Positions 3,046 to 16,583 of a DNA stretch of 22,608 bases are shown here, piece by piece. The stretch spans positions 1 through 22,608 of IMG/VR virus record IMGVR_UViG_3300042691_005865; one strand, 5' to 3'. This DNA is from a virus. How positions within the stretch are numbered: position 1 is the stretch's first letter; each line of letters opens with the position of its first letter. The translations under genes and the position numbers were made by a program. The notes below the pieces were generated by a model that was not told where the DNA came from, searched no databases, and saw only the letters and a list, made by a program, of their open reading frames with translations.

Positions 3046-4938
3046 ATGGCAGAAGCTAAGAAAAAGCCCAAAAACGTCATCTATGAAGTCATGGCCCCCG
3101 ATGGGAAAACCCTTCTTGAAATTGAGGGACCAGAGGGTGCTAGTGAGCAGCAAGTATTGCAGGCCGCATCTGGTTTGTACCGCCAGCAATTGCAAAGTTT
3201 AGCGGCTACCACGGATGTGCCTGTTCTTGATCAATTTGGGCAAGTGGTACAGCCGCCACAAGTGCAGCCTAGACCATTAACCATCGGCGAACGCTTAACA
3301 GGTGCTGCCGAAACAGCAGGCACACTAATAAGCGGCGTTCCTGCTGCTATTGGTCAAGTTGGTGGGACCCTTGGCGCTCTTGCAGCTGCTGGTGTGAGAG
3401 GTGAGATAGGCTCACCAGAAGCCGCTAGATTGGCGCAAGAGGTCGCTATGCAGCAGGCCCAACGTCAGCTATACATGCCACAAACACAAGCTGGTCAGCA
3501 GATGGTACAGGCTGTAGGGCAAGCGGCAGAACTAGTGCCTCCATTTTTGCCCATGGCGGCAGAATTGCAGGCAGCTAGTAGATTTGCTGGTCCTGCGGCT
3601 ATGCAGGCTCCAATGGCAACTAGGCGAGCGGCAGAGCAGGCGGCAGCTGGCGTACAAGGCGCTGCGCAAGAAGTTGCTCAAGAAGCTAGAGCTGTTGGGC
3701 AAGGATTGGCAAGAATAGCAACTGAGCCAACACCTCAGCAGCAAGCTATTATCCAGACGATAAAGCAAGATCCTTATAATACTGACGTTGTTAGTTATCA
3801 GCTTGTTGGCAACAAATTAAAAGCTGATAAACCAGCTAACGAAGCCATTAAACAAGGATGGAAAGAAGGTGCTGTTGCAGCTATTAAAGCATCGTCTGAC
3901 GAAGACCGTATAAGAATGCAAAAAATGCTTGACGTTTACAAGCAAGGCAAAAAGGACGAAAGATTTAGAGCGCTGAATCGTCCTGCTGACATTCTTGGAG
4001 AATCATTGAACAATAGAATTCAATTCTTGAATAACACAAGAAAACGAGCAGGAAAAGATATAGAGCGCATAGCAAAAGAACAACTTAGAGGTAAAAGTGT
4101 AAATTACGCTCCAGCAATAGATCAGTTTATTTCTGATCTTAATGAAATAAATGTTGGCGTTGTAATGGGCCAAGATGGTATTGCAAGAGCCGTATTAAGA
4201 GGTTCAGATATTGAAGGTGATACGCAGGCTCAAAAAATAATTAATTCAACGCTGAAACGACTTAGCACTGAAGCGCCACCTGATGCTTATGGCGTTCATA
4301 CTGCAAAACGATTTATAGATACGCAAGTTGATTATGGAAAGCGTAACAATAAAAACCCTTTAACAAGGCAAGCAGAAAACATATTAAAAAACTTAAGACG
4401 TAATCTGAATCAAACCTTAAATGCTGAATTTAGTGATTATGGCGCGGCCAACACAAAGTATTATGAAACGAAACAAGCCTTAGATAACATGCAAGATGCT
4501 GTAGGGTCAAAACTTGATTTTGATAGCCCTAATGCTGCTGCTGCATTTGGCACAGCAAGTCGCAGAATACTTAGCAATTACGCATCAAGAGTGAACTTGA
4601 TTGATAGTCTTGATGAAACAAATAGAATTGTTAACAAATACGGAATGAAGACAAACGACGATATTGTTAATCAGCTAATATTTGTTAATGAATTAGATAG
4701 AATGTTCGGTGCTCCTGCTGATATGACGTTTAAAGGCCAAATTTCACAAGCTATTGAAACAGGCTTGGATGTAGCAAGAGGCAATTTGGCTCAACGGGCA
4801 ATGGATTTAATGGCGCAAGGTGCTGAGCGTATGCGTGGCATAAACGAAGAAAACGCCATAAAAGAAATTGAAAAGATACTCGCAAGAAGGAAGGCTGTAA
4901 CGCCTGGAACTTCAATGGCGATTTCGCCAAACAGATAA
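3046..4938 (+). CDS. Putative internal virion/ejection protein (630 aa)
   Basis: The start is ATG at 3046 with GAGGAAA 5-10 bases upstream. Residues about 12-45 (VMAPDGKTLLEIEGPEGASE and on) match a short beta-rich N-terminal module often seen on phage virion proteins, where it precedes a variable body. Residues about 80-235 are Ala/Gly/Gln rich with low-charge stretches (around LISGVPAAIGQVGGTLGALA) that could associate with membranes, followed by long helical Ala-rich repeats. Residues 240-610 are Lys/Asn/Asp rich and mostly helical. No lytic transglycosylase or peptidase motif is visible. A role as an inner-core protein that enters the cell envelope on infection is inferred from composition and from the neighbours on both sides. 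Confidence 0.7.
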   Translation: MAEAKKKPKNVIYEVMAPDGKTLLEIEGPEGASEQQVLQAASGLYRQQLQSLAATTDVPVLDQFGQVVQPPQVQPRPLTIGERLTGAAETAGTLISGVPAAIGQVGGTLGALAAAGVRGEIGSPEAARLAQEVAMQQAQRQLYMPQTQAGQQMVQAVGQAAELVPPFLPMAAELQAASRFAGPAAMQAPMATRRAAEQAAAGVQGAAQEVAQEARAVGQGLARIATEPTPQQQAIIQTIKQDPYNTDVVSYQLVGNKLKADKPANEAIKQGWKEGAVAAIKASSDEDRIRMQKMLDVYKQGKKDERFRALNRPADILGESLNNRIQFLNNTRKRAGKDIERIAKEQLRGKSVNYAPAIDQFISDLNEINVGVVMGQDGIARAVLRGSDIEGDTQAQKIINSTLKRLSTEAPPDAYGVHTAKRFIDTQVDYGKRNNKNPLTRQAENILKNLRRNLNQTLNAEFSDYGAANTKYYETKQALDNMQDAVGSKLDFDSPNAAAAFGTASRRILSNYASRVNLIDSLDETNRIVNKYGMKTNDDIVNQLIFVNELDRMFGAPADMTFKGQISQAIETGLDVARGNLAQRAMDLMAQGAERMRGINEENAIKEIEKILARRKAVTPGTSMAISPNR

Positions 4939-8019: not shown

Positions 8020-8185
8020 ATTCCTTCATATCAAATAACTGAAGCAACTCTTTACGCAGTGGCGACACGTCCACTTCTGGATATGCTTCTGCCAGTAACT
8101 CCAAGTAGCGCAGTGCAATCTGCGCTTGGTTTGGAGATTCGCAGCTGTTAATGACAGCCCATGCTTTTTTAAGTAGTTCGCTCAT
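8012..8185 (-). CDS. Small hypothetical protein (57 aa)
   Basis: Begins MSELLKKAWAVINSCESPNQ and continues helical (AQIALRYLELLAEAYPEVDV) to FDMKEFK. The start overlaps the stop of the DUF3310 gene (ATGA at 8182-8185 on the minus strand), which supports translational coupling and a real gene. It is the last gene of the minus-strand early operon, ending inside the hairpin at 7993-8019. The composition is acidic to neutral and all-helical; no family is recognised. Confidence 0.65.
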   Translation of the reverse strand: MSELLKKAWAVINSCESPNQAQIALRYLELLAEAYPEVDVSPLRKELLQLFDMKEFK

Positions 8186-8487
8186 TTTGTCCTTCTTGCT
8201 ATTTCACGCTCGATGTACCAAACAGCCTTACGCAAATCTTCGATTTCATCGCCTTTTAACCCTGCACGCCATACATACTTGAGGGCATTACCAAGGCAAA
8301 AAGTCATGTGTTCCGTAATCTGAATGCACTCTATTCCGCTTGGATGTTGGGTGTAATGTTTTGGATGATTGACAGCATCATAGTGCTGTCCAGTATTGCC
8401 GTTCTGACCTATGTTAGAGTTACGCATACACGCTCCTGAGCAATTACCTTCTGGGTAGTTGCAGTCAAATTCTAAACATGGATTCAT
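8182..8487 (-). CDS. DUF3310 protein with Cys-rich N-terminus (101 aa)
   Basis: Residues 36-101 match the phage DUF3310 family: NHPKHY (40-45), GNALKYVWRAGLKGD (66-80) and DLRKAVWYIEREI (84-96). The family is often annotated as a nucleotide kinase, without good support known to me. Residues 1-21 form an unusual extension with Cys4, Cys9, Cys16 and Cys20, which could bind a metal. The ATG follows directly after the stop of a 25-residue membrane peptide (TAAATG), and its stop overlaps the next gene. It belongs to the early minus-strand operon downstream of the promoter at 8596-8624. Confidence 0.85.
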   Translation of the reverse strand: MNPCLEFDCNYPEGNCSGACMRNSNIGQNGNTGQHYDAVNHPKHYTQHPSGIECIQITEHMTFCLGNALKYVWRAGLKGDEIEDLRKAVWYIEREIARRTK

Positions 8488-8580: not shown

Positions 8581-8595
8581 TTAAGTAATGCTTAA
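8581..8595. promoter_or_regulatory. Operator candidate A2 (TTAAG-N5-CTTAA)
   Basis: Perfect dyad TTAAG-TAATG-CTTAA immediately downstream of the -10 box of the minus-strand promoter, covering the expected transcription start. Its centre is 18 bp from that of site A1, so two dimers could sit side by side about two helical turns apart. Confidence 0.5.
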
Positions 8596-8624
8596 ATATT
8601 AAGTTTTACTTAAAACATTGTCAA
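8596..8624 (-). promoter_or_regulatory. Sigma70-like promoter for the 8565-8012 operon
   Basis: Read on the minus strand: TTGACA (8624-8619, a perfect -35), a 17-bp spacer, then TAATAT (8601-8596, 4 of 6 matches to TATAAT). It drives the micro-peptide, DUF3310 and 57-residue genes. The -35 overlaps the stop codon of the helicase gene. Operator candidates A1 and A2 overlap the spacer and the start region, so repression is expected. Confidence 0.65.
8599..8613. promoter_or_regulatory. Operator candidate A1 (TTAAG-N5-CTTAA)
   Basis: Perfect dyad TTAAG-TTTTA-CTTAA lying between the -35 and -10 boxes and overlapping the -10 box. Bound repressor would block RNA polymerase. Together with A2 it forms a 33-bp near-symmetric block (8581-8613). 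Confidence 0.5.
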
Positions 8625-9958
8625 GGACGTAACGCATCAAGAAGTTCATTTTGTTGTGCATCTTTTTGATGCAGTACAGTTATTACGCGTTCGTCTATGC
8701 CGCCCGAGGTAACTAAATGCACTATTCGCACTGGGCGCGTTTGCCCTTGGCGATGTAAACGAGCGTTAAACTGTTGGTAGAGTTCAAGTGACCAGTTCAA
8801 ACCAAACCAAACACATAGAGCGCCGCCGTCTTGGAGATTGAGGCCGTGACCGGCACTTGCTGGATGAGCCAGCAGCATACGAATTTTGCCAGCGTTCCAA
8901 CGAGCAATCGTAGACGGTTCTTTATCCAAAACAACCGCATCTGGGAAACGATCGCGTATACGGGCCAAGTCTGATTTATAGTTGTAAGCTACCAATACCG
9001 TCTCGTTGGGGTTGTCCTCCATGATCTCGGCCAAAGCGTCGAGCTTGGCAGCATGGAGCGCTGACCAATTACCCTTGTCATCAGTATACGTCGCGCCGTT
9101 GCACCACTGGAGCAGTTTGTTTGCCAGTACTGCCGCGCTGCTTGCTTCAATTTCTTGCCCGTCTGGTAACTCGGCTAGCAATGTACGTTCAAAGTTTAAA
9201 TATGCTTTTAGAGTTGCTGGCGGCAAGTAGACCGGCTCAACTAAATTAATGCGCTCAGGCAGTTGTAAGTAGTCGCTAGCGGCCATGCTTATCCATGAGT
9301 CGGCAAGCAGAGTGTGGATTTTCTCGGCGGCTCCGGCCTTTGGTGTGTGTTTGTAGCCCATAAAATCACCGTCGAAAAAGCGCTGTTTGTACGCTGTGTA
9401 TGTCTTGCCAAGCGCCATCCCTTGGTCGATTAGATACTGTTGCGCCCATAGGTCTAAAAGACTGTTTGGCGCTGGCGTGCCAGTAAGCAGCACCATATAG
9501 TTGGTCATCGGCAGTACGCGGCGTATAGCCTTCCAGCGCTGAGCGGCTTGTGACTTGAAGCTGCTCGACTCGTCGATAATGACGGCATCGAACGGCCATT
9601 TATCTCGGCAATGCTTCACTAGCCAGGGAACGTTTTCGCGATTGATGACATACACGTCTGCGGTTTTTTGCAAAGCTGTCAGGCGTTGGCGTTCTGTGCC
9701 AGTGCAAATAATCACTTTAAGACTTTGCAGGTGTGACCACTTTTTTACCTCTTGCGCCCATACGCTATTTGCGACACGCAACGGAGCTATGACCAGCACG
9801 CGATCTACTATGCAGCCGTCGAGTAGATCGGCCATGGCCGTGAGCGTCGATACGGATTTACCTAATCCCATTTCTAACGCGAGGCCACATCGACGTTTAG
9901 ATTTAATAAAATCTACTGTTCGACGTTGATATTCATGCAAGTCGTTAGGGGAAAGCAT
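8621..9958 (-). CDS. SNF2-like superfamily 2 DNA helicase/translocase (445 aa)
   Basis: The start chosen is ATG at 9958 (MLSPNDLHEYQ), which has GGAAG eight bases upstream and overlaps the VRR-NUC stop by 14 bases; an upstream ATG at 10018 would overlap much more. Motifs in order: Q-like LHEYQ (7-11), Walker A EMGLGKS (29-35), motif II DESS (129-132), motif III LLTGTPAPN (157-165), motif V GHGLNLQ (370-376), motif VI QQFNARLHRQGQ (395-406). This is a complete ATP-driven dsDNA translocase core of the SNF2 type, found in many phage replication modules next to a VRR-NUC gene. Likely role: fork or recombination-intermediate processing with the adjacent nuclease. The exact substrate is unknown. 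Confidence 0.92.
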   Translation of the reverse strand: MLSPNDLHEYQRRTVDFIKSKRRCGLALEMGLGKSVSTLTAMADLLDGCIVDRVLVIAPLRVANSVWAQEVKKWSHLQSLKVIICTGTERQRLTALQKTADVYVINRENVPWLVKHCRDKWPFDAVIIDESSSFKSQAAQRWKAIRRVLPMTNYMVLLTGTPAPNSLLDLWAQQYLIDQGMALGKTYTAYKQRFFDGDFMGYKHTPKAGAAEKIHTLLADSWISMAASDYLQLPERINLVEPVYLPPATLKAYLNFERTLLAELPDGQEIEASSAAVLANKLLQWCNGATYTDDKGNWSALHAAKLDALAEIMEDNPNETVLVAYNYKSDLARIRDRFPDAVVLDKEPSTIARWNAGKIRMLLAHPASAGHGLNLQDGGALCVWFGLNWSLELYQQFNARLHRQGQTRPVRIVHLVTSGGIDERVITVLHQKDAQQNELLDALRP

Positions 9959-10208
9959 CAACTGCTTCCAGAGTATCAATAACGCGTACATCACAACCCA
10001 ATGCTCGTCGGCGCTCATGATCGCGTTGTTGGTTTTCAGTTGGTTTTGCGCCTGGGGCCTTTAACTCGACAAAAATAATACGGCCACCAGGAAGTGTTAC
10101 AATTCGATCTGGAACACTGCGTTTGTTTGGACTAGTAAACTTTTCGGCCATGCCTCCAAGTGTTTTAACGCGTTTAACTAATGCTGTTTCGATATGCTTT
10201 TCAAGCAT
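9945..10208 (-). CDS. Stand-alone VRR-NUC nuclease (87 aa)
   Basis: A minimal PD-(D/E)xK nuclease domain with SVPDRIVTLPGG (Asp34) and IIFVELKAPG (Glu48, Lys50), followed by the QRDHERRRALGCDVRVID helix-strand. Length is typical of free-standing phage VRR-NUC proteins. ATG at 10208 has GAGG six bases upstream; a TTG at 10214 is possible but lacks better support. It overlaps the polymerase stop at one end and the helicase start at the other, so the three are translated from one message. The family acts as structure-specific endonucleases; cutting of branched DNA is inferred. Confidence 0.92.
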   Translation of the reverse strand: MLEKHIETALVKRVKTLGGMAEKFTSPNKRSVPDRIVTLPGGRIIFVELKAPGAKPTENQQRDHERRRALGCDVRVIDTLEAVDAFP

Positions 10209-11970
10209 AACCAACCTCTTGTAATAGTTCCTGGGCAGCTTTTATATAAACCGCATAATTTACGTCATTTGGAAATCCGCAAAACTCCATGACCGGCTTC
10301 GCGCCGCCTGAGTTCGGCACGCGGTTATTGTTGGTCGCATAATGAATACACTCGTCTGGTAGTACAGTCGTTGAGTGATAGAAGCGCACAGCTTTACCCA
10401 GTCGCTCATGTCTCCACATCGCGCCACCTTGCACGCGCCGTATGGTGACAAACTGTGTGAGGTCAGTACAACCGTGTATTGTCTCTTCAATGGGCGTACC
10501 CTTGGCAATGTGCTGCGCTACGGCGGTATAAATGATCTGGCCGTCTGGGTTTTTGGCGAGGCTGGCGGGAGCGAAAATGCCCTTACCCTTGATCTTGCCG
10601 TCAGTCCTCACGGCGACGTAGTTATTCACGTCGCGGCTGGCAATGACGCTGTACGCTGTGCGCTCCAATTGGTAACTAGTGTCGAGCATCCAGTCAAACG
10701 TAATTTCATCCACTACATCGGCTTGTGCCGTAGAGTGGCAAACGACAATGCCGTCAGTGTTTGCGCTAATCACCCGCACGCCTGCGACCTCAAGCCGTTC
10801 GATTAGCATAAGTAGCGCAAGTTGGCCGGTAATTGTTGTCTGAATAAGTAACTCGGGCGCGTAAAGTGTGCTGTACTTCGACCCGAACTTGCCGAAAGAG
10901 CCATTGAGCGTAATCTTGAGCGTATCGGCTGTTACTTTATCGCCGGAGCGTTTGGCAGCAAGGCGGCGATTAATCAGGGACTGATATAGCGTCAAAAACG
11001 GTTTGCCAAACGCTCCTGGCGCAAGCTGTTGCTGCATGATGATTGATGGGTAATAGGAAGCTACATCGTAGTCTGCCAGTACCATGCCGCCGTCAGTCTT
11101 GACGCACTGGCGTTGCTCGCAGGAGTGCAGACCACCAATGCCCATTTGATATTCAGCTTGTCCGATCTGGATACGAGATTCTTTTAACCACATTGGCATT
11201 TGGACGGACCCATTTGGCCCAAGCTGCCAATTCTCAGCCATTATTCGTTTAAACACGCCTGTCAGGTATGGTGACTGAAACTTAATAATTTTGGGGTCAC
11301 GGTATTTAAACGTGTACCCGTCTTTAAGTTCTGGTTTTCGGTATTCTTTGCCGGTTAGTTTTTTAAGCTCATGTGTAATTAATTTCTCGGCAATCTGCGC
11401 ATCTGAAAGACTGCGAAAATCCATATTATATTGCTTGCCCATATCTACACGTAGATCAATCTGCGGCTTGAGTGCCCTGTAAAGCAGGTGCGTGGTATGT
11501 AGATCGTTCTCGCAATATTCGCGCACAATAAAACGTTGTTCTTGATTGATGCTAGCGTCTGGCTCAATCGGCAAATCTTGCATTTTTGGAGCATTAAGTC
11601 TTCCGCCGTAAATCTTTAAACTCGATTGTCCAGGTGCAACTTCGATAAGGTCAATGTGGTCCCAAGAGTCGGGTATACGCAATTCGTATGTTTTTAAGAT
11701 GCGCCAGATCGATTCGTTAGACTTGATAATAGTGTCGGCTAGTTTCTTTATTTGCGTAATGCTGTAATTATTCAACGCTGCGGCAAGTAATGGAAGATCA
11801 AAATGGTTACCATTAAAACTCATAGTTACATGCTTCATGAGTTTATGGAGGCGAGCCTTATTGATAGGTTGACCATCAAAAGCTTCGATATGAGTGATTT
11901 TGCCTGTCTCTATGTTGAGCGCAGAAACTAAAAAATAATCCGAGTAAATTTCGGTATCAATAATGAGCAT
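10201..11970 (-). CDS. Compact family B DNA polymerase with proofreading domain (589 aa)
   Basis: Exonuclease motifs: Exo I D5-T-E7, Exo II N53-x3-F57-D58, Exo III Y152-x3-D156. Polymerase motifs: YxGG-like YQMGIGGLHS (274-283), motif A D302-VAS-YYPSI, motif B K352-x3-N356-x3-G360, motif C N404-T-D406-G, and a KxKG segment at 459-464. These are family B signatures, not family A. Motif A to motif B is only about 50 residues, so the long TPR1 insertion of protein-primed phi29-like enzymes is absent and an ordinary primer is expected, probably made by the VapE/PrimPol protein. Motif C has Asn where DTD is usual; the essential second Asp (406) is kept. AGAGG lies nine bases before the ATG. Confidence 0.92.
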   Translation of the reverse strand: MLIIDTEIYSDYFLVSALNIETGKITHIEAFDGQPINKARLHKLMKHVTMSFNGNHFDLPLLAAALNNYSITQIKKLADTIIKSNESIWRILKTYELRIPDSWDHIDLIEVAPGQSSLKIYGGRLNAPKMQDLPIEPDASINQEQRFIVREYCENDLHTTHLLYRALKPQIDLRVDMGKQYNMDFRSLSDAQIAEKLITHELKKLTGKEYRKPELKDGYTFKYRDPKIIKFQSPYLTGVFKRIMAENWQLGPNGSVQMPMWLKESRIQIGQAEYQMGIGGLHSCEQRQCVKTDGGMVLADYDVASYYPSIIMQQQLAPGAFGKPFLTLYQSLINRRLAAKRSGDKVTADTLKITLNGSFGKFGSKYSTLYAPELLIQTTITGQLALLMLIERLEVAGVRVISANTDGIVVCHSTAQADVVDEITFDWMLDTSYQLERTAYSVIASRDVNNYVAVRTDGKIKGKGIFAPASLAKNPDGQIIYTAVAQHIAKGTPIEETIHGCTDLTQFVTIRRVQGGAMWRHERLGKAVRFYHSTTVLPDECIHYATNNNRVPNSGGAKPVMEFCGFPNDVNYAVYIKAAQELLQEVGYA

Positions 11971-11994
11971 GAGGGGTAGCCTCTAAGTGATATG

Positions 11995-12018
11995 AAAAGG
12001 GCCGGAGTAACCGGCCCT
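11995..12018 (-). terminator. Intrinsic terminator between DUF2815 and polymerase genes
   Basis: An 8-bp GC-rich perfect stem (AGGGCCGG 11998-12005, CCGGCCCT 12011-12018) with a 5-base loop, followed on the minus strand by TTTT (11998-11995). It lies seven bases past the DUF2815 stop. The T tract is short, so partial termination could lower polymerase expression relative to the ssDNA-binding protein. Confidence 0.65.
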
Positions 12019-12024
12019 GATAGT

Positions 12025-12555
12025 TTAGAAGAAGGCGTCGTCTTCATCGTCGAATGCGTTGAATGCGTTGAACTCTTCAGCACTTGTTCCACCGTCACCA
12101 AACGGCTCACCGTCACGTACAAATTGCACGCCATCAAGCTGTGCGTTTATGCGCTTACCGTACTGATTGTTTTGCGCCCATAATGTAATTATTCCATTAA
12201 CATAACATCCAGCGTAAATAATATTATCATCTTCGCTGATGGCGCTTTTATCTCGATTAATAACTAATGGACGCTTTTTAGTAGACGCTTTGATCGTCAT
12301 TTTACCCGCGTATTCGGGACGGTCCATCTCGTCGCCATCTTTTAAACAAAGTTTATCTGACGCAACTTTACCCTTTAGTTCGTCTTTCTGTAATTTGGCT
12401 ATTACAGCTTCAATTTCAGAAATGGTCTTGGCATGATCTTTCTTATCAAGAATAAACGTAGCTTCGTATTTGCCAGTAGATTCACCGCCAAATGAAGCCA
12501 TTTGAAAGAGCGAAGGAAAAGAAAGGCGTGCAGAAGGGATTTTAACTTTAGACAT
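12025..12555 (-). CDS. DUF2815 ssDNA-binding protein (176 aa)
   Basis: The N-terminus MSKVKIPSARLSFPSLFQMA and the segments KYEATFILDKKDH, RPEYAGKMTIKAS, AGCYVNGIITLWAQ and NAQLDGVQFVRDGEPFGDG follow the DUF2815 family, a predicted OB-fold-type phage ssDNA-binding protein. The C-terminus is acidic and ends DDEDDAFF, like the protein-interaction tail of bacterial SSB. It should coat ssDNA at the fork and recruit partners such as PolB or the nucleases. GGTAAAAA precedes the ATG. An operator-like dyad sits upstream at 12600-12614 and a terminator just downstream, suggesting separate, high-level control. Confidence 0.9.
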   Translation of the reverse strand: MSKVKIPSARLSFPSLFQMASFGGESTGKYEATFILDKKDHAKTISEIEAVIAKLQKDELKGKVASDKLCLKDGDEMDRPEYAGKMTIKASTKKRPLVINRDKSAISEDDNIIYAGCYVNGIITLWAQNNQYGKRINAQLDGVQFVRDGEPFGDGGTSAEEFNAFNAFDDEDDAFF

Positions 12556-12583
12556 TGGTTTTTACCTTTTAGCGTTTTTGTTG

Positions 12584-12601
12584 AGCCGTTACCGGCTTTT
12601 T
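12584..12601 (+). terminator. Weak hairpin with T run, plus-strand polarity
   Basis: AGCCG (12584-12588), loop TTAC, CGGCT (12593-12597), then a T run to 12601. It would terminate plus-strand transcription, yet the flanking genes are on the minus strand, so it could limit antisense RNA or be incidental. Confidence 0.25.
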
Positions 12602-12614
12602 AAGTATCGGTTAA
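12600..12614. promoter_or_regulatory. Operator candidate D (TTAAG-N5-GTTAA)
   Basis: TTAAG-TATCG-GTTAA, one arm mismatch from the dyad found at 8581 and 8599. It lies in the 62-base gap upstream of the DUF2815 gene. No strong promoter is recognised around it. Confidence 0.35.
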
Positions 12615-12617
12615 TTT

Positions 12618-13748
12618 TTAAAGTGTGTCAAATTCTGAAGCAATATCAAATATTGACGGTCTGGAATCGGACTCTGGCGCAAGAGTCGGTTTACCTTTTG
12701 GCTTTTCAATAAGATCAGAAATATCAGGTATGCGTTTTTTGCCGAGTGCTTTTTCTGCTTTTGCTACTGATAAAATTTTACGTTCAAACGCATCATTTCC
12801 GAGCAATGAAATAAGACGTTTTTCGGCTTCAGCATCGTTAGACCATTGGCGCAAACTTCGCCCTTCCACAAGTTTATAACCAGGAAATGTGCCAGATTCA
12901 TTAATAATTGACGATATATGATCTTCTACAGCATCAAGCCAAGAAACAATTAATTTCTTTGCATCCATTGCTTTGCGTAATTGTTCGTTTGTTAGTTTAT
13001 CTGGATTTTGTAGTGTTAAATCATCAAAACTGCTCATTAGTACATTTTCCGTATGTTTTGCTAATGCGGGGCATGTTGCTTTTGCTTTGCAGAACTGGCA
13101 CTGCTTTTCACCAGGAATGCGCGGAGCATTTGGTTTTAAAGCCTCTTCAGCAGAGCGTTTAATCCACTCGCCTAATGCTAACAATTCATCTCGCGTCAGT
13201 CGCCATTCGCTAATATGATCTATGCGCGGCTGTACTATATGTACGTGGAAATATTCAGGGTCATAAAAATCAAAACGTTTCAAAGCACCTAGCGCATAAA
13301 GTATTGCTTGTGTGTTTTGATAAGCGTCAACCATTACGCCTTTGCCATATTTAAAGTCGATTACATGGACTGTTGTACCATCAAAAGCTAGTGCATCTGC
13401 TGTGCCGAATCCTTCTGGAACATAATCAGAAAAGTCTAATCTTACTTCCTGATCAAGATCGCAATTTTTACCAACAGTAATTACATAGTCTACATAAGCC
13501 TGTACTGCCGCGCACATTTCATAACTAACTGTTAAAGCATCATGTGTAGGATGCTTTAAACCTTCATATTGAAACGCAAACAAATGAGGGCTATTAATCA
13601 ATACGTGTTCTGCTAACTCATGCGCAGCCGTTCCTTCATCTGCAAAATGCGAACGCGTATCTGGTAATCCTTCTTCTGCTTTTACTGAACCTGGGCAATT
13701 AATCCAACGATGAGACCCACTAGCAGATAGTTTTGCGTGAGCTTTCAT
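12618..13748 (-). CDS. DUF2800 Cas4/RecB-like nuclease (376 aa)
   Basis: The start chosen is ATG at 13748 (MKAHAKLSASGSHRWINCPG): it overlaps the upstream stop as ATGA and has GGAGG seven bases before it; an upstream start at 13787 is unlikely. PD-(D/E)xK motifs: His43 in EGTAAHELAEH, Asp118 in FGTADALAFDG, D131-F-K133 in VIDFKYGKG, and a QxxxY-like YQNTQAILYA helix (143-152). Cys18, Cys217, Cys220 and Cys226 have the one-plus-three layout of Fe-S-bound Cas4/AddB nucleases. Probably a DNA end-processing exonuclease working with the ssDNA-binding protein next to it in recombination or replication. The Fe-S cluster is inferred. Confidence 0.9.
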   Translation of the reverse strand: MKAHAKLSASGSHRWINCPGSVKAEEGLPDTRSHFADEGTAAHELAEHVLINSPHLFAFQYEGLKHPTHDALTVSYEMCAAVQAYVDYVITVGKNCDLDQEVRLDFSDYVPEGFGTADALAFDGTTVHVIDFKYGKGVMVDAYQNTQAILYALGALKRFDFYDPEYFHVHIVQPRIDHISEWRLTRDELLALGEWIKRSAEEALKPNAPRIPGEKQCQFCKAKATCPALAKHTENVLMSSFDDLTLQNPDKLTNEQLRKAMDAKKLIVSWLDAVEDHISSIINESGTFPGYKLVEGRSLRQWSNDAEAEKRLISLLGNDAFERKILSVAKAEKALGKKRIPDISDLIEKPKGKPTLAPESDSRPSIFDIASEFDTL

Positions 13749-14092
13749 TGTATTGCCTCCAATGCTGTTTTTAGTTTTGGCAAACAATCAGTGGGCACTT
13801 TGCTTAAAGTTTTTGCTCCACCAAACGAATTGATTAGCTCTTTAATCTTTGGCTTAAGATTTTGGTCTTTGCGTACCAACTCAGTACATAACGCTTGCAA
13901 GTCATCAATTGTTACAGGTGTTGATGTGACTTCTTCTGAGGCTACTGGTGGATGCTCAGGAATGCTTGGCTGCTCAGGAATGCTTGGAAGTGCTGCATGT
14001 GACACGCCTATTAAAGTTGCTGTAAGTCCATTTATTGCTTCCCGTAGTGATGCAATTTCTTGGCGCAAATTGGTAATTTCTACTTCTAACAT
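13745..14092 (-). CDS. Coiled-coil protein, unknown function (115 aa)
   Basis: Residues 1-30 form a leucine-rich coiled coil (MLEVEITNLRQEIASLREAI). Residues 36-58 are a Pro/Glu/Ser linker with a duplicated PSIPEQ/PSIPEH unit. Residues 60-115 form a compact helical domain (TIDDLQALCTELVRKD, then KELINSFGGAKTLSKVP). That C-terminal module is familiar from small phage proteins of unknown function. Start ATG follows AAGGAA, and its stop overlaps the DUF2800 start, so it heads the replication operon. Probably multimeric through the coiled coil; a role as a nuclease cofactor is only a guess. Confidence 0.75.
   Translation of the reverse strand: MLEVEITNLRQEIASLREAINGLTATLIGVSHAALPSIPEQPSIPEHPPVASEEVTSTPVTIDDLQALCTELVRKDQNLKPKIKELINSFGGAKTLSKVPTDCLPKLKTALEAIQ
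13953..13988 (-). repeat. 18-bp tandem duplication in coding sequence
   Basis: Two adjacent copies of TGCTCAGGAATGCTTGG plus one base, 17 of 18 identical, encoding PSIPEQ and PSIPEH in the linker of the coiled-coil protein. Near-identity implies recent slippage. Confidence 0.8.
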
Positions 14093-14125
14093 TTTGATTC
14101 CTTTTTAGTCTGTTTAGTTTTAGGT

Positions 14126-14140
14126 TTAAGCATTGCTTTA
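14126..14140. promoter_or_regulatory. Operator candidate B1 (TTAAG-N5-CTTTA)
   Basis: TTAAG-CATTG-CTTTA, one arm mismatch, within the longer inverted pair GTTTAA...TTAAAC (14124-14143). It overlaps the -35 of the regulator promoter and lies upstream of the minus-strand replication operon, so it can serve both directions. Confidence 0.45.
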
Positions 14141-14165
14141 AACATTTGTAATGTTAAGCTATGAT
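14137..14165 (+). promoter_or_regulatory. Promoter of the HTH regulator
   Basis: TTTAAA (14137-14142, 4 of 6 matches to -35), 17-bp spacer, TATGAT (14160-14165, 5 of 6 matches to -10). Transcription from here would begin near 14172 and favours translation from ATG 14194 over the ATG at 14161. It is flanked and overlapped by operator candidates B1 and B2. Confidence 0.5.
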
Positions 14166-14168
14166 TAA
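14154..14168. promoter_or_regulatory. Operator candidate B2 (TTAAG-N5-ATTAA)
   Basis: TTAAG-CTATG-ATTAA, one arm mismatch, covering the -10 of the regulator promoter. Over 19 bases (14151-14169 versus 8578-8596) it matches the A2 region at 16 positions. Confidence 0.45.
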
Positions 14169-14193
14169 AGAGTCGTCAACTTTGGAGAGCGTT

Positions 14194-14394
14194 ATGGATA
14201 AAGAAACTGATCAGTATGAGAGGGTGATTGCCTATTTTGGCTCCCAAGCCAACGCAGCTAAGGCTTTAGGCATATCTTCTGCTGCTGTTGCCCAATGGAA
14301 GATAAAAGCAATTCCTCCGCAACGTGCTATACAAATAGAGGCATTAAGTCAGGGCAAGATCAAAGCGTTAGAGCTAATACCTAGCCTCAAATAA
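14194..14394 (+). CDS. Cro/YdaS-like HTH transcriptional regulator (66 aa)
   Basis: A small helix-turn-helix protein. Residues about 12-40 (IAYFGSQANAAKALGISSAA) carry the helix-turn-helix, continuing VAQWKIKAIPPQRAIQIEAL, the pattern of the YdaS/Cro family in which recognition-helix Gln/Trp is followed by a Pro-rich turn and IE. ATG at 14194 has GGAGAG six bases upstream; the in-frame ATG at 14161 lies inside the -10 element and lacks a ribosome site. It sits between the minus-strand replication operon and the plus-strand VapE gene, the usual place for a switch regulator. Dyads B1 and B2 around its promoter suggest autoregulation, and the same dyad elsewhere suggests regulon-wide control. 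Confidence 0.85.
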   Translation: MDKETDQYERVIAYFGSQANAAKALGISSAAVAQWKIKAIPPQRAIQIEALSQGKIKALELIPSLK

Positions 14395-14395
14395 T

Positions 14396-14427
14396 AAAAA
14401 AGCCCGATAAGCTAAGCTTACCGAGCT
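14396..14427 (-). terminator. Hairpin with T tract on the minus strand
   Basis: An imperfect 27-base stem-loop (14401-14427, 11 pairs with two mismatches, core TAAGCT-A-AGCTTA). On the minus strand it is followed by six Ts (14401-14396). It would stop antisense transcription arriving from the VapE gene, protecting the switch region. In the plus direction no T tract follows. Confidence 0.35.
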
Positions 14428-14455
14428 AAAAGCTAGGAACAAACAAAACGACAGG

Positions 14456-14470
14456 TTAAGTATAACTTAT
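14456..14470. promoter_or_regulatory. Operator candidate C (TTAAG-N5-CTTAT)
   Basis: TTAAG-TATAA-CTTAT, one arm mismatch, ending on the second base of the VapE start codon and overlapping a TATAAC -10-like hexamer. Binding here could block transcription entering the VapE gene. Confidence 0.4.
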
Positions 14471-16583
14471 GAACTCTACAAAGACCAAAACATCACACAT
14501 TTTTAATGTGTTTCCAGTGAATTTAATCCATACAACAGGTAAGGATAAGCCGGAAAAAAAGCCCGCTGTGCGAGGTTGGCAGTCACATATGGCTGCTGTT
14601 GAAGATTTAGCTTTCTCTCAAAACATAGGTGTCGGTGTCCCAGAATCTCACGTTTTTATTGATCTCGATACTTATAAGGGGGTTACTCGCGAGGCAGTTG
14701 ATGTTGCACTTGGCGTAACGTTGCAGTGGGACGATGCTTTAATTCAACGCACAGTGTCAGGTGGCGAACACTATTGTTTTAAGCTTCCTGAAGGCGTTGA
14801 AGTACGGCAAGGTTCATCATTACTTGGCGTCTCAGGCTTCGATACTAGAACACATGGTAAGGGATGGATTTGCACAGGCGAAGGCTACGAAGACATGACA
14901 CTTGTTGGTATGCCAGAGGCTGTTTTTCTTGAATCATGGCCCATGTTGCCAGGATTAGCAGTCGAGCGTATGCAAGAAGTCGAAAGGTCTTTGATCGACG
15001 GAAAGGAACCACTTGGCTACACCGAAGAGCAATTGCGCGAGATTTTATCGGTTTTAGACCCGTCTCCTACCGCACGTGAAGATTGGTTAGCTGTTGGAAT
15101 GGCCTTACACCATGAGACAAATGGTAGTCGTGAAGGATTCCGTTTGTTTGATGAATGGTCAGGGTCACGAGACGAAGACGGAAAACTGCGGTATGCCAAA
15201 TATAAAGTCGATGATGTACGCAACGCATGGCAGAGTTTTAAACGCAAAGGCGCAGGCACCGTAACCACGGCTAGAACATTGCGAATGATGGCAGCTGAGC
15301 AAGGGCTTTTTGTTGACCCTCATCCGGTAAAAGCTGAAGACTTCGACGACTTTGAATGTGAGACATTGCCCAATGAAGTTGTAAGTACATCACTCAGATT
15401 TAAGCGCGATAAGAAAGGTAAGATTGAAGCCTCCTTAGAGAACGTTGATACCGCTTTAAGGTCGTTTGATTTCTGTGGCATGGATATACGTTTTGATCAA
15501 TTTCGCGATGAAATTATGTATTCCGAGCCTGGAACTAAAGCTTGGCGTGCCTTTGCTGATGCCGATTATTCCAGATTGCGAATCATGCTTGAGCGCCGAG
15601 GCTTTAAAGCTGTTGGACGTGAGCTTATACGTGATGCTGTCTTGCTTGTTGCTGATGAAAACCCTTTTGATTCTGCTATCGAATGGCTCGATGGGTTGGC
15701 ATGGGATGGACTCAGCCGTATTGATAATTTTCTAGTCGATTACTTTGGCGCTGAGGCAAGCTCATACACCACTGCTGTATCACGTTATATGTGGTCAGCG
15801 ATGGCGGGACGAGTTCTTGCTCCAGGATGCAAAGCCGATATGGTTCCGATTTTGGTTGGTCGTCAAGGCGCAGGTAAAAGCTCTGGCGTTGCCGCTATGT
15901 CTCCTGCTCCTGACTTCTTTGCTGAGATTTCATTCCACGAACGAGAGGAAGACCTTGCACGAAAGATGCGTGGTCGTTTGGTTGGAGAGATCGGAGAGCT
16001 TCGCGGCCTTCATACCCGAGAACTTGAGCATATAAAAGCTTTCATCACTCGCACTCATGAGAATTGGATTCCTAAGTATCGGGAGTTTGCCGTTTCATTT
16101 CCGAGGCGGCTTTTATTTGTCGGAACTACTAATCAGCAGGAGTTTTTGGCTGATGAGACTGGTAATAGGCGATGGCTTCCGGTGCAGGTTGATGGCGGCG
16201 ATGTGGTGGCTATTGAGCGCGATCGACTCCAATTGTGGGCAGAGGCAAGGGAGTCATTTAAGGCCAATGGGATAGCTTTTAGGGAGGCCGAAGAGCTGAG
16301 TAAAGCAGTCCATGAGCATCACATGATCAGGGATGCGTGGGAAGAGATCATATCGGCTTGGTTGGACGAACCGGACATGTTAGACGGCAAGCCTCCTAGG
16401 GAAAGAGGCAAAATAAAGACTGCGGATGTATTGATGGACGCCCTGAACTTCGACAAAAAACATATTGGTCGAAGGGAAGAGTTGCGTATCGGAAGGGTAA
16501 TGAAAGCTCTTGGATACGAGAAGAAGAAAGAACGACTTAACGGAAAACCAGAGTGGTGCTTCATTCCGAGAGCCCCATTCTGA
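14469..16583 (+). CDS. PrimPol-PriCT-VapE primase-helicase (704 aa)
   Basis: A multidomain replication protein. Residues 10-165 are an archaeo-eukaryotic-type primase-polymerase domain with IDLD (64-67), SGGEH (97-101) and GFDTRTHGKGW (123-133). Residues about 185-260 match a PriCT-2 domain (ILSVLDPSPTAREDWLAVGM). Residues 390-600 are the VapE superfamily 3-like ATPase: Walker A GRQGAGKS (464-471), acidic Walker B-like GEIGEL (506-511), sensor Asn555 in GTTNQ, and Arg finger candidate GNRRW (565-569). The C-terminal 100 residues look like a winged-helix DNA-binding tail. It can prime and unwind, so it likely acts at an origin; the TTCCAG repeats directly downstream are the candidate. The ribosome site is weak (AGG 14-16 bases upstream) and overlapped by operator candidate C. 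Confidence 0.92.
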   Translation: MNSTKTKTSHIFNVFPVNLIHTTGKDKPEKKPAVRGWQSHMAAVEDLAFSQNIGVGVPESHVFIDLDTYKGVTREAVDVALGVTLQWDDALIQRTVSGGEHYCFKLPEGVEVRQGSSLLGVSGFDTRTHGKGWICTGEGYEDMTLVGMPEAVFLESWPMLPGLAVERMQEVERSLIDGKEPLGYTEEQLREILSVLDPSPTAREDWLAVGMALHHETNGSREGFRLFDEWSGSRDEDGKLRYAKYKVDDVRNAWQSFKRKGAGTVTTARTLRMMAAEQGLFVDPHPVKAEDFDDFECETLPNEVVSTSLRFKRDKKGKIEASLENVDTALRSFDFCGMDIRFDQFRDEIMYSEPGTKAWRAFADADYSRLRIMLERRGFKAVGRELIRDAVLLVADENPFDSAIEWLDGLAWDGLSRIDNFLVDYFGAEASSYTTAVSRYMWSAMAGRVLAPGCKADMVPILVGRQGAGKSSGVAAMSPAPDFFAEISFHEREEDLARKMRGRLVGEIGELRGLHTRELEHIKAFITRTHENWIPKYREFAVSFPRRLLFVGTTNQQEFLADETGNRRWLPVQVDGGDVVAIERDRLQLWAEARESFKANGIAFREAEELSKAVHEHHMIRDAWEEIISAWLDEPDMLDGKPPRERGKIKTADVLMDALNFDKKHIGRREELRIGRVMKALGYEKKKERLNGKPEWCFIPRAPF

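Follow-up and report, generated by a model that had tools for sequence, protein, structure and literature searches.

TTAAG-N5-CTTAA dyads in a phage replication module as probable operators of a P22 Cro-like protein

The replication module of a viral DNA fragment of 22,608 bp (the whole stretch analysed, referred to here as the window), which is flanked by structural and lysis genes, carries six copies of the dyad TTAAG-N5-CTTAA. Judged from sequence, these are very probably operators of the phage's own Cro-like HTH protein, through which it would regulate its own gene and lower the activity of replication-gene promoters (Table 1). The direct basis for this reading is formed by the sites, their overlap with promoters, their conservation at a fixed spacing, the protein's family assignment and modelled fold and the identity of the half-site with that of phage P22; from these we infer binding, repression, its direction and its timing. 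In the lysis-lysogeny switches from which it is known, Cro opposes CI, and its lytic role in lambda and P22 is turning down early transcription. What appears to be new here is that, in phages for which no CI partner was detected, a Cro with the half-site of P22 has operators that are dispersed and use a 5-bp spacer; no description of this operator set was found in the literature searched.

Dyads and promoters in the window

Rescanning the window with at most one arm mismatch returned exactly six sites, in agreement with all coordinates and mismatch counts of the first-pass annotation. In line with its placing of the sites in gaps or start regions, each of the six is located entirely or largely in a gap; gaps total 1,034 bp (~4.6%) of the window. 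Dyad D overlaps the VapE start codon by 2 bp, and no site with one mismatch or fewer lies inside a gene of the window. Six sites of the plain pattern were observed against a mean of 1.18 in dinucleotide shuffles, with 2 of 1000 shuffles reaching six, while at two mismatches the plain pattern shows no enrichment (15 seen versus 14.7 expected). In all six dyads position 6 is a pyrimidine and position 10 a purine, so that they fit the tighter form TTAAGYNNNRCTTAA, for which the six sites, none with more than one arm mismatch, compare with a shuffle mean of 0.41 and a maximum of 4 in 1000 shuffles; as this refinement was derived from the same six sites, its independent test lies in the relatives. 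At two mismatches the tighter form gains one further site only, within a gap at 14407-14421, where it forms the inner stem of a hairpin resembling a terminator; it was left out of the site count. The hairpin itself (14401-14427, between the HTH and VapE genes) exhibits an ATAAG-N5-CTTAC dyad as this inner stem and may double as terminator and weak operator.

Table 1. Genes, dyads and predicted promoters of the replication module (positions in the window)
Feature	Position	Strand	Remarks
DUF3310 accessory protein	8182..8487	-	downstream of dyads A
Dyad A1, TTAAGTAATGCTTAA	8581..8595	none	perfect; just downstream of -10 of minus-strand accessory-operon promoter (DUF3310, 57-aa ORF)
Promoter TTGACA-17-TAATAT	8596..8624	-	10/12 match; carries dyads A1/A2
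Dyad A2, TTAAGTTTTACTTAA	8599..8613	none	perfect; in -35/-10 spacer and start of -10
SNF2/DEAD helicase	8621..10018	-	stop codon followed by dyads A
VRR-NUC nuclease	9945..10214	-	
DNA polymerase, phrog_1252	10201..11970	-	B-type
Enc34-type ssDNA-binding protein, SSB (DUF2815)	12025..12555	-	downstream of dyad B
Dyad B, TTAAGTATCGGTTAA	12600..12614	none	one mismatch; covers -10 of SSB (DUF2815) promoter
Promoter TTGACA-17-GATACT	12603..12631	-	10/12 match; SSB gene
DUF2800 protein, PD-(D/E)XK exonuclease-like	12618..13748	-	
115-aa ORF	13745..14092	-	first gene of divergent operon; homologues at same place in relatives
Dyad C1, TTAAGCATTGCTTTA	14126..14140		one mismatch; reaches into -35 of HTH promoter; downstream of divergent promoter
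Promoter TTTAAA-17-TATGAT	14137..14165	+	HTH (cro-like) gene
Divergent promoter TTGACG-17-TAACAT	14151..14179	-	g13745-DUF2800 operon; similar promoters in several relatives
Dyad C2, TTAAGCTATGATTAA	14154..14168		one mismatch; on -10 of HTH promoter and spacer/-10 of divergent DUF2800-operon promoter
Cro-like HTH protein, 66 aa	14194..14394	+	P22_Cro PF14549, YdaS PF15943; proposed ligand and autorepressor
Dyad D, TTAAGTATAACTTAT	14456..14470	none	one mismatch; overlaps VapE start codon
Primase/helicase with VapE-like domain	14469..16583	+	downstream of dyad D

The best sigma70-like sites of the module coincide with the dyads: 5 of the 16 matches in 9.4 kb overlap a dyad, among them all three 10/12 matches. 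Since the sigma70-like scan by itself is at shuffle level (16 found versus 15.0 expected), the weight of the promoter evidence is in this coincidence and not in the scan alone. The register also recurs, with A2 and C2 starting 11 bp after the -35 start on the minus strand and B starting 17 bp after it and spanning the -10. At position A, relatives L011-L016 retain both the dyad and TTGACA/TTGACG in the same register, and at position B a TTGACA-16 element with a T-A-rich -10 lies beneath the dyad in L012-L015, L029 and L030; no clear promoter was found at dyad D. The location of these sites within the replication module would also suit replication-origin elements (iterons), and the record of APSE-7 (L084) labels 3356-3456, beside its Cro-like gene, as a putative origin of replication. 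However, the sites are scattered singly or in pairs over 6 kb and keep their recurring register to promoter hexamers, so that we regard an iteron function as improbable, although the C gap might serve doubly as operator and origin. A role of the dyads as RNA hairpins, in the manner of attenuators or weak terminators, is even less probable: the A pair can fold at -8.3 kcal/mol and the extra dyad at 14407 forms part of a terminator-like stem, but B and C2 overlie -10 elements and hence are transcribed at most partly, and for these two an RNA hairpin role was rejected as they fold at 0 kcal/mol.

The Cro-like protein and known Cro systems

The 66-aa HTH protein belongs to both the P22_Cro family (PF14549; 66.7 bits, curated cut-off 30.2, E 1.6e-18) and the YdaS family (PF15943; 50.4 bits, cut-off 30, E 1.9e-13), which bears out the Cro/YdaS-like label given to it from the sequence alone. 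Its nearest solved relative by sequence is P22 Cro. The AlphaFold model, built on a 32-sequence alignment (pLDDT 87.4; an earlier model without an alignment was too poor for use), has fold matches to Xfaso1 Cro, XPH1, P22 Cro, N15 Cro and YdaS, and the matches to 3bd1, 1rzs and 2hin identify a helical Cro fold with an HTH. Xfaso1 Cro (3bd1) and N15 Cro (2hin, 6on0), which are among the best of these matches, differ from the window protein in coming from a prophage and from a temperate phage.

P22 Cro shares with the window protein the PF14549 family, an autoregulatory position and a near-identical recognition helix (SDAAVSQWK in P22, SSAAVAQWK in the window), and TTAAG/CTTAA half-sites are common to the P22 operators at cI(c2)-cro and the window dyads; such half-sites are indeed present upstream of the cro-like gene. 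P22, Erwinia 59, Pantoea PA-1 and Enterobacter MII_001 each exhibit three operators between cI and cro, all with TTAAG/TAAAG arms, a spacer of 4 and the helix SDAAVSQWK, and mEp390 (helix ASVSGW) likewise uses a spacer of 4 (gtagg-CAAT-cctac). The 4-bp separation of the P22 type was not found in the window or its relatives, which use 5, and whereas the three P22 operators stand in tandem beside the CI gene, those of the window are found singly or in pairs at four positions in the module, none next to a CI gene. As P22 Cro operates at spacer 4, homology alone gives no prediction of spacer 5. The two systems thus have a half-site in common and differ in its spacing.

YdaS of the E. coli prophage CP-933P shares the PF15943 family with the window protein and is a Cro-like repressor at a divergent promoter region, where it represses both its own promoter and the opposing one (PMC8630535). 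Unlike the window, this system displays a consensus repeat GTTTAGTAA in 18-bp palindromes and has a CI-like partner, PaaR2 (PMC8630535). The behaviour of YdaS bears on the direction of regulation, since the window protein might bind the dyads yet activate early genes: with YdaS a repressor and the dyads covering -10/spacer elements, a blocking position, we hold activation to be improbable. Occlusion of -10, spacer and -35 elements by the dyads instead points to repression.

Conservation of the dyad and its linked variation with the recognition helix

Relatives were gathered through DUF2800, polymerase and HTH-alignment searches together with named phages; a viral-contig search with the HTH alone and megablast against named phages found nothing. 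In the 110 bp preceding the HTH gene, a dyad with spacer 5 and at most one mismatch is present in 19 of 41 distinct relatives (shuffle mean 0.30, maximum 3), compared to none of the 41 at spacers 2, 3, 4, 6, 7 or 8, and at two mismatches the spacer-5 dyad is found in 36 of the 41 (shuffles 4.4, maximum 8). Upstream of the SSB (DUF2815) gene, 12 of 32 relatives exhibit a spacer-5 dyad with at most one mismatch and none of the 32 exhibits one at spacers 3, 4, 6 or 7. Downstream of SNF2 the dyad is retained in 6 of 24 relatives (L011-L016), all with a polymerase at least 86% identical, and dyad D is retained upstream of VapE in a single relative (L028), while no dyads were found upstream of the Pol, DUF2800, SNF2 and VRR genes in relatives. 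Of the 38 sites with one mismatch or none that 22 relatives (189 kb) contain, 35 lie at the four named positions, and two of the three outlying sites are one homologous site inside the VapE gene of L016 and L017. The tests that the first-pass annotation had set, clustering outside coding sequence and conservation in related phages, hence both gave results in favour of the dyad, which is kept in many phages with exact spacing. Of the early regulon that it had proposed, sites B and C are strongly conserved and firm, whilst A, kept in close relatives only, and D, kept in one, are weaker members. Besides the TTAAG dyad, L028-L030 share a conserved atactAGGCTagtat palindrome 46 bp upstream of the HTH start, at the promoter.

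Operator and recognition helix appear to change together. L018 (helix AVFQW) exhibits the site TCAAG-CTAGG-CTTGA and its relative L019 (helix AVFNW) the site TCAAC-AAATC-GTTGA, with the same base pair altered in both arms; neither has a matching site in the SSB gap. TTTAG arms occur in both the HTH and SSB gaps of L041, the second with one mismatch, and GAACTRCGCTTAA is common to both gaps in L040 and L042. The HTH-gap site matches the SSB gap of its own phage better than those of other phages (0 of 5000 permutations; p = 0.002 for non-TTAAG phages), and Q before W in the helix associates with better dyads (Mann-Whitney p = 0.002), in tests that correct only partly for common descent. Most GHIYYW-type helices go without a dyad; against the trend, L027 (SLW) keeps TTAAG despite the changed residue. 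A more distant Cro group with TVSQW/TVNQW helices (L061, L062, L065, L066, L068 and L072) has several dyads of the TTAGG/TAAGG type ahead of the HTH gene; with integrase and S24 repressor in the single record tested, G020 (L065), this group would represent a lambdoid layout with an altered half-site.

These patterns bear on whether a host regulator or nucleoid protein binds the dyads and the phage HTH gene is merely adjacent. Host regulators often target AT-rich palindromes over promoters, as the dyads are, and binding by the phage protein is what we infer; nevertheless, the dyads track the Cro-like gene across many phages at one fixed spacing, vary together with the recognition helix and share their half-site with the cI-cro region of P22-type phages. 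They are furthermore missing from the SSB gaps of five module relatives (L021, L023, L024, L009 and L010) for which the search near the module detected no such HTH; the best matches in these gaps carry 3-5 mismatches. We thus consider a host ligand unlikely, to much the same degree as activation, and retain the Cro-like protein as the candidate ligand.

Proposed mechanism and lysogeny genes

A homodimer of the Cro-like protein would read the two TTAAG half-sites, which lie 10 bp apart, with one recognition helix (SSAAVAQW) each, and the bound dimer would block RNA polymerase where the dyad covers the -10, spacer or -35. Sites C1 and C2 would provide autorepression together with control of the divergent DUF2800 operon, B would govern the SSB gene and A the accessory operon, with VapE a possible target of D. 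Early and replication-gene transcription would then fall as the protein builds up after infection, apparently without a CI partner.

Neither an integrase (PF00589) nor an S24 repressor (PF00717) was found in the window or the searched module relatives, including the complete phages PHS21 and AL, although most IMG/VR records are fragmentary and absence there is weak evidence; YeP5, APSE-7 and G020, a relative of lambdoid type, have both, and a tyrosine integrase also occurs in more distant relatives. No serine recombinase was detected in the window, PHS21, AL or the searched module relatives, and the annotation of the AL record lists neither integrase nor CI. In the window, itself a fragment, no CI-type repressor lies divergent from the cro-like gene, a place taken by the 115-aa ORF. 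G003 and G008 contain an additional HTH ORF, so that a repressor of a non-S24 type is possible in some relatives. A search of 84,980 genomes for a prophage context gave one match, a Pseudomonas contig, a weak result since the search pattern was narrow. Taken from these gene contents, the phage group seems to retain Cro without its usual CI competitor.

On balance we favour, with some reserve, that an apparently non-lysogenic phage group runs its replication module by a stand-alone Cro and dispersed operators, with a spacing of 5 against the 4 of P22 at a constant half-site implying an altered dimer geometry. If this is true, conserved Cro and operators without detectable CI or integrase would separate the lytic role of Cro from the switch and offer a defined operator set on which this role can be tested. 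The constant half-site with spacer 4 in P22 and 5 here amounts to a natural experiment on a change in Cro dimer spacing, and in dozens of phages helix and operator vary in a linked way, which could permit operators to be predicted from sequence.

The gap between the SSB and polymerase genes contains a strong terminator-like hairpin at 11998-12018 (8 pairs, 7 of them G-C), which could allow an excess of SSB over polymerase. L015 and L016 carry ~2.5 kb of extra DNA between these two genes, which is absent in the window, L012, L013 and L017.
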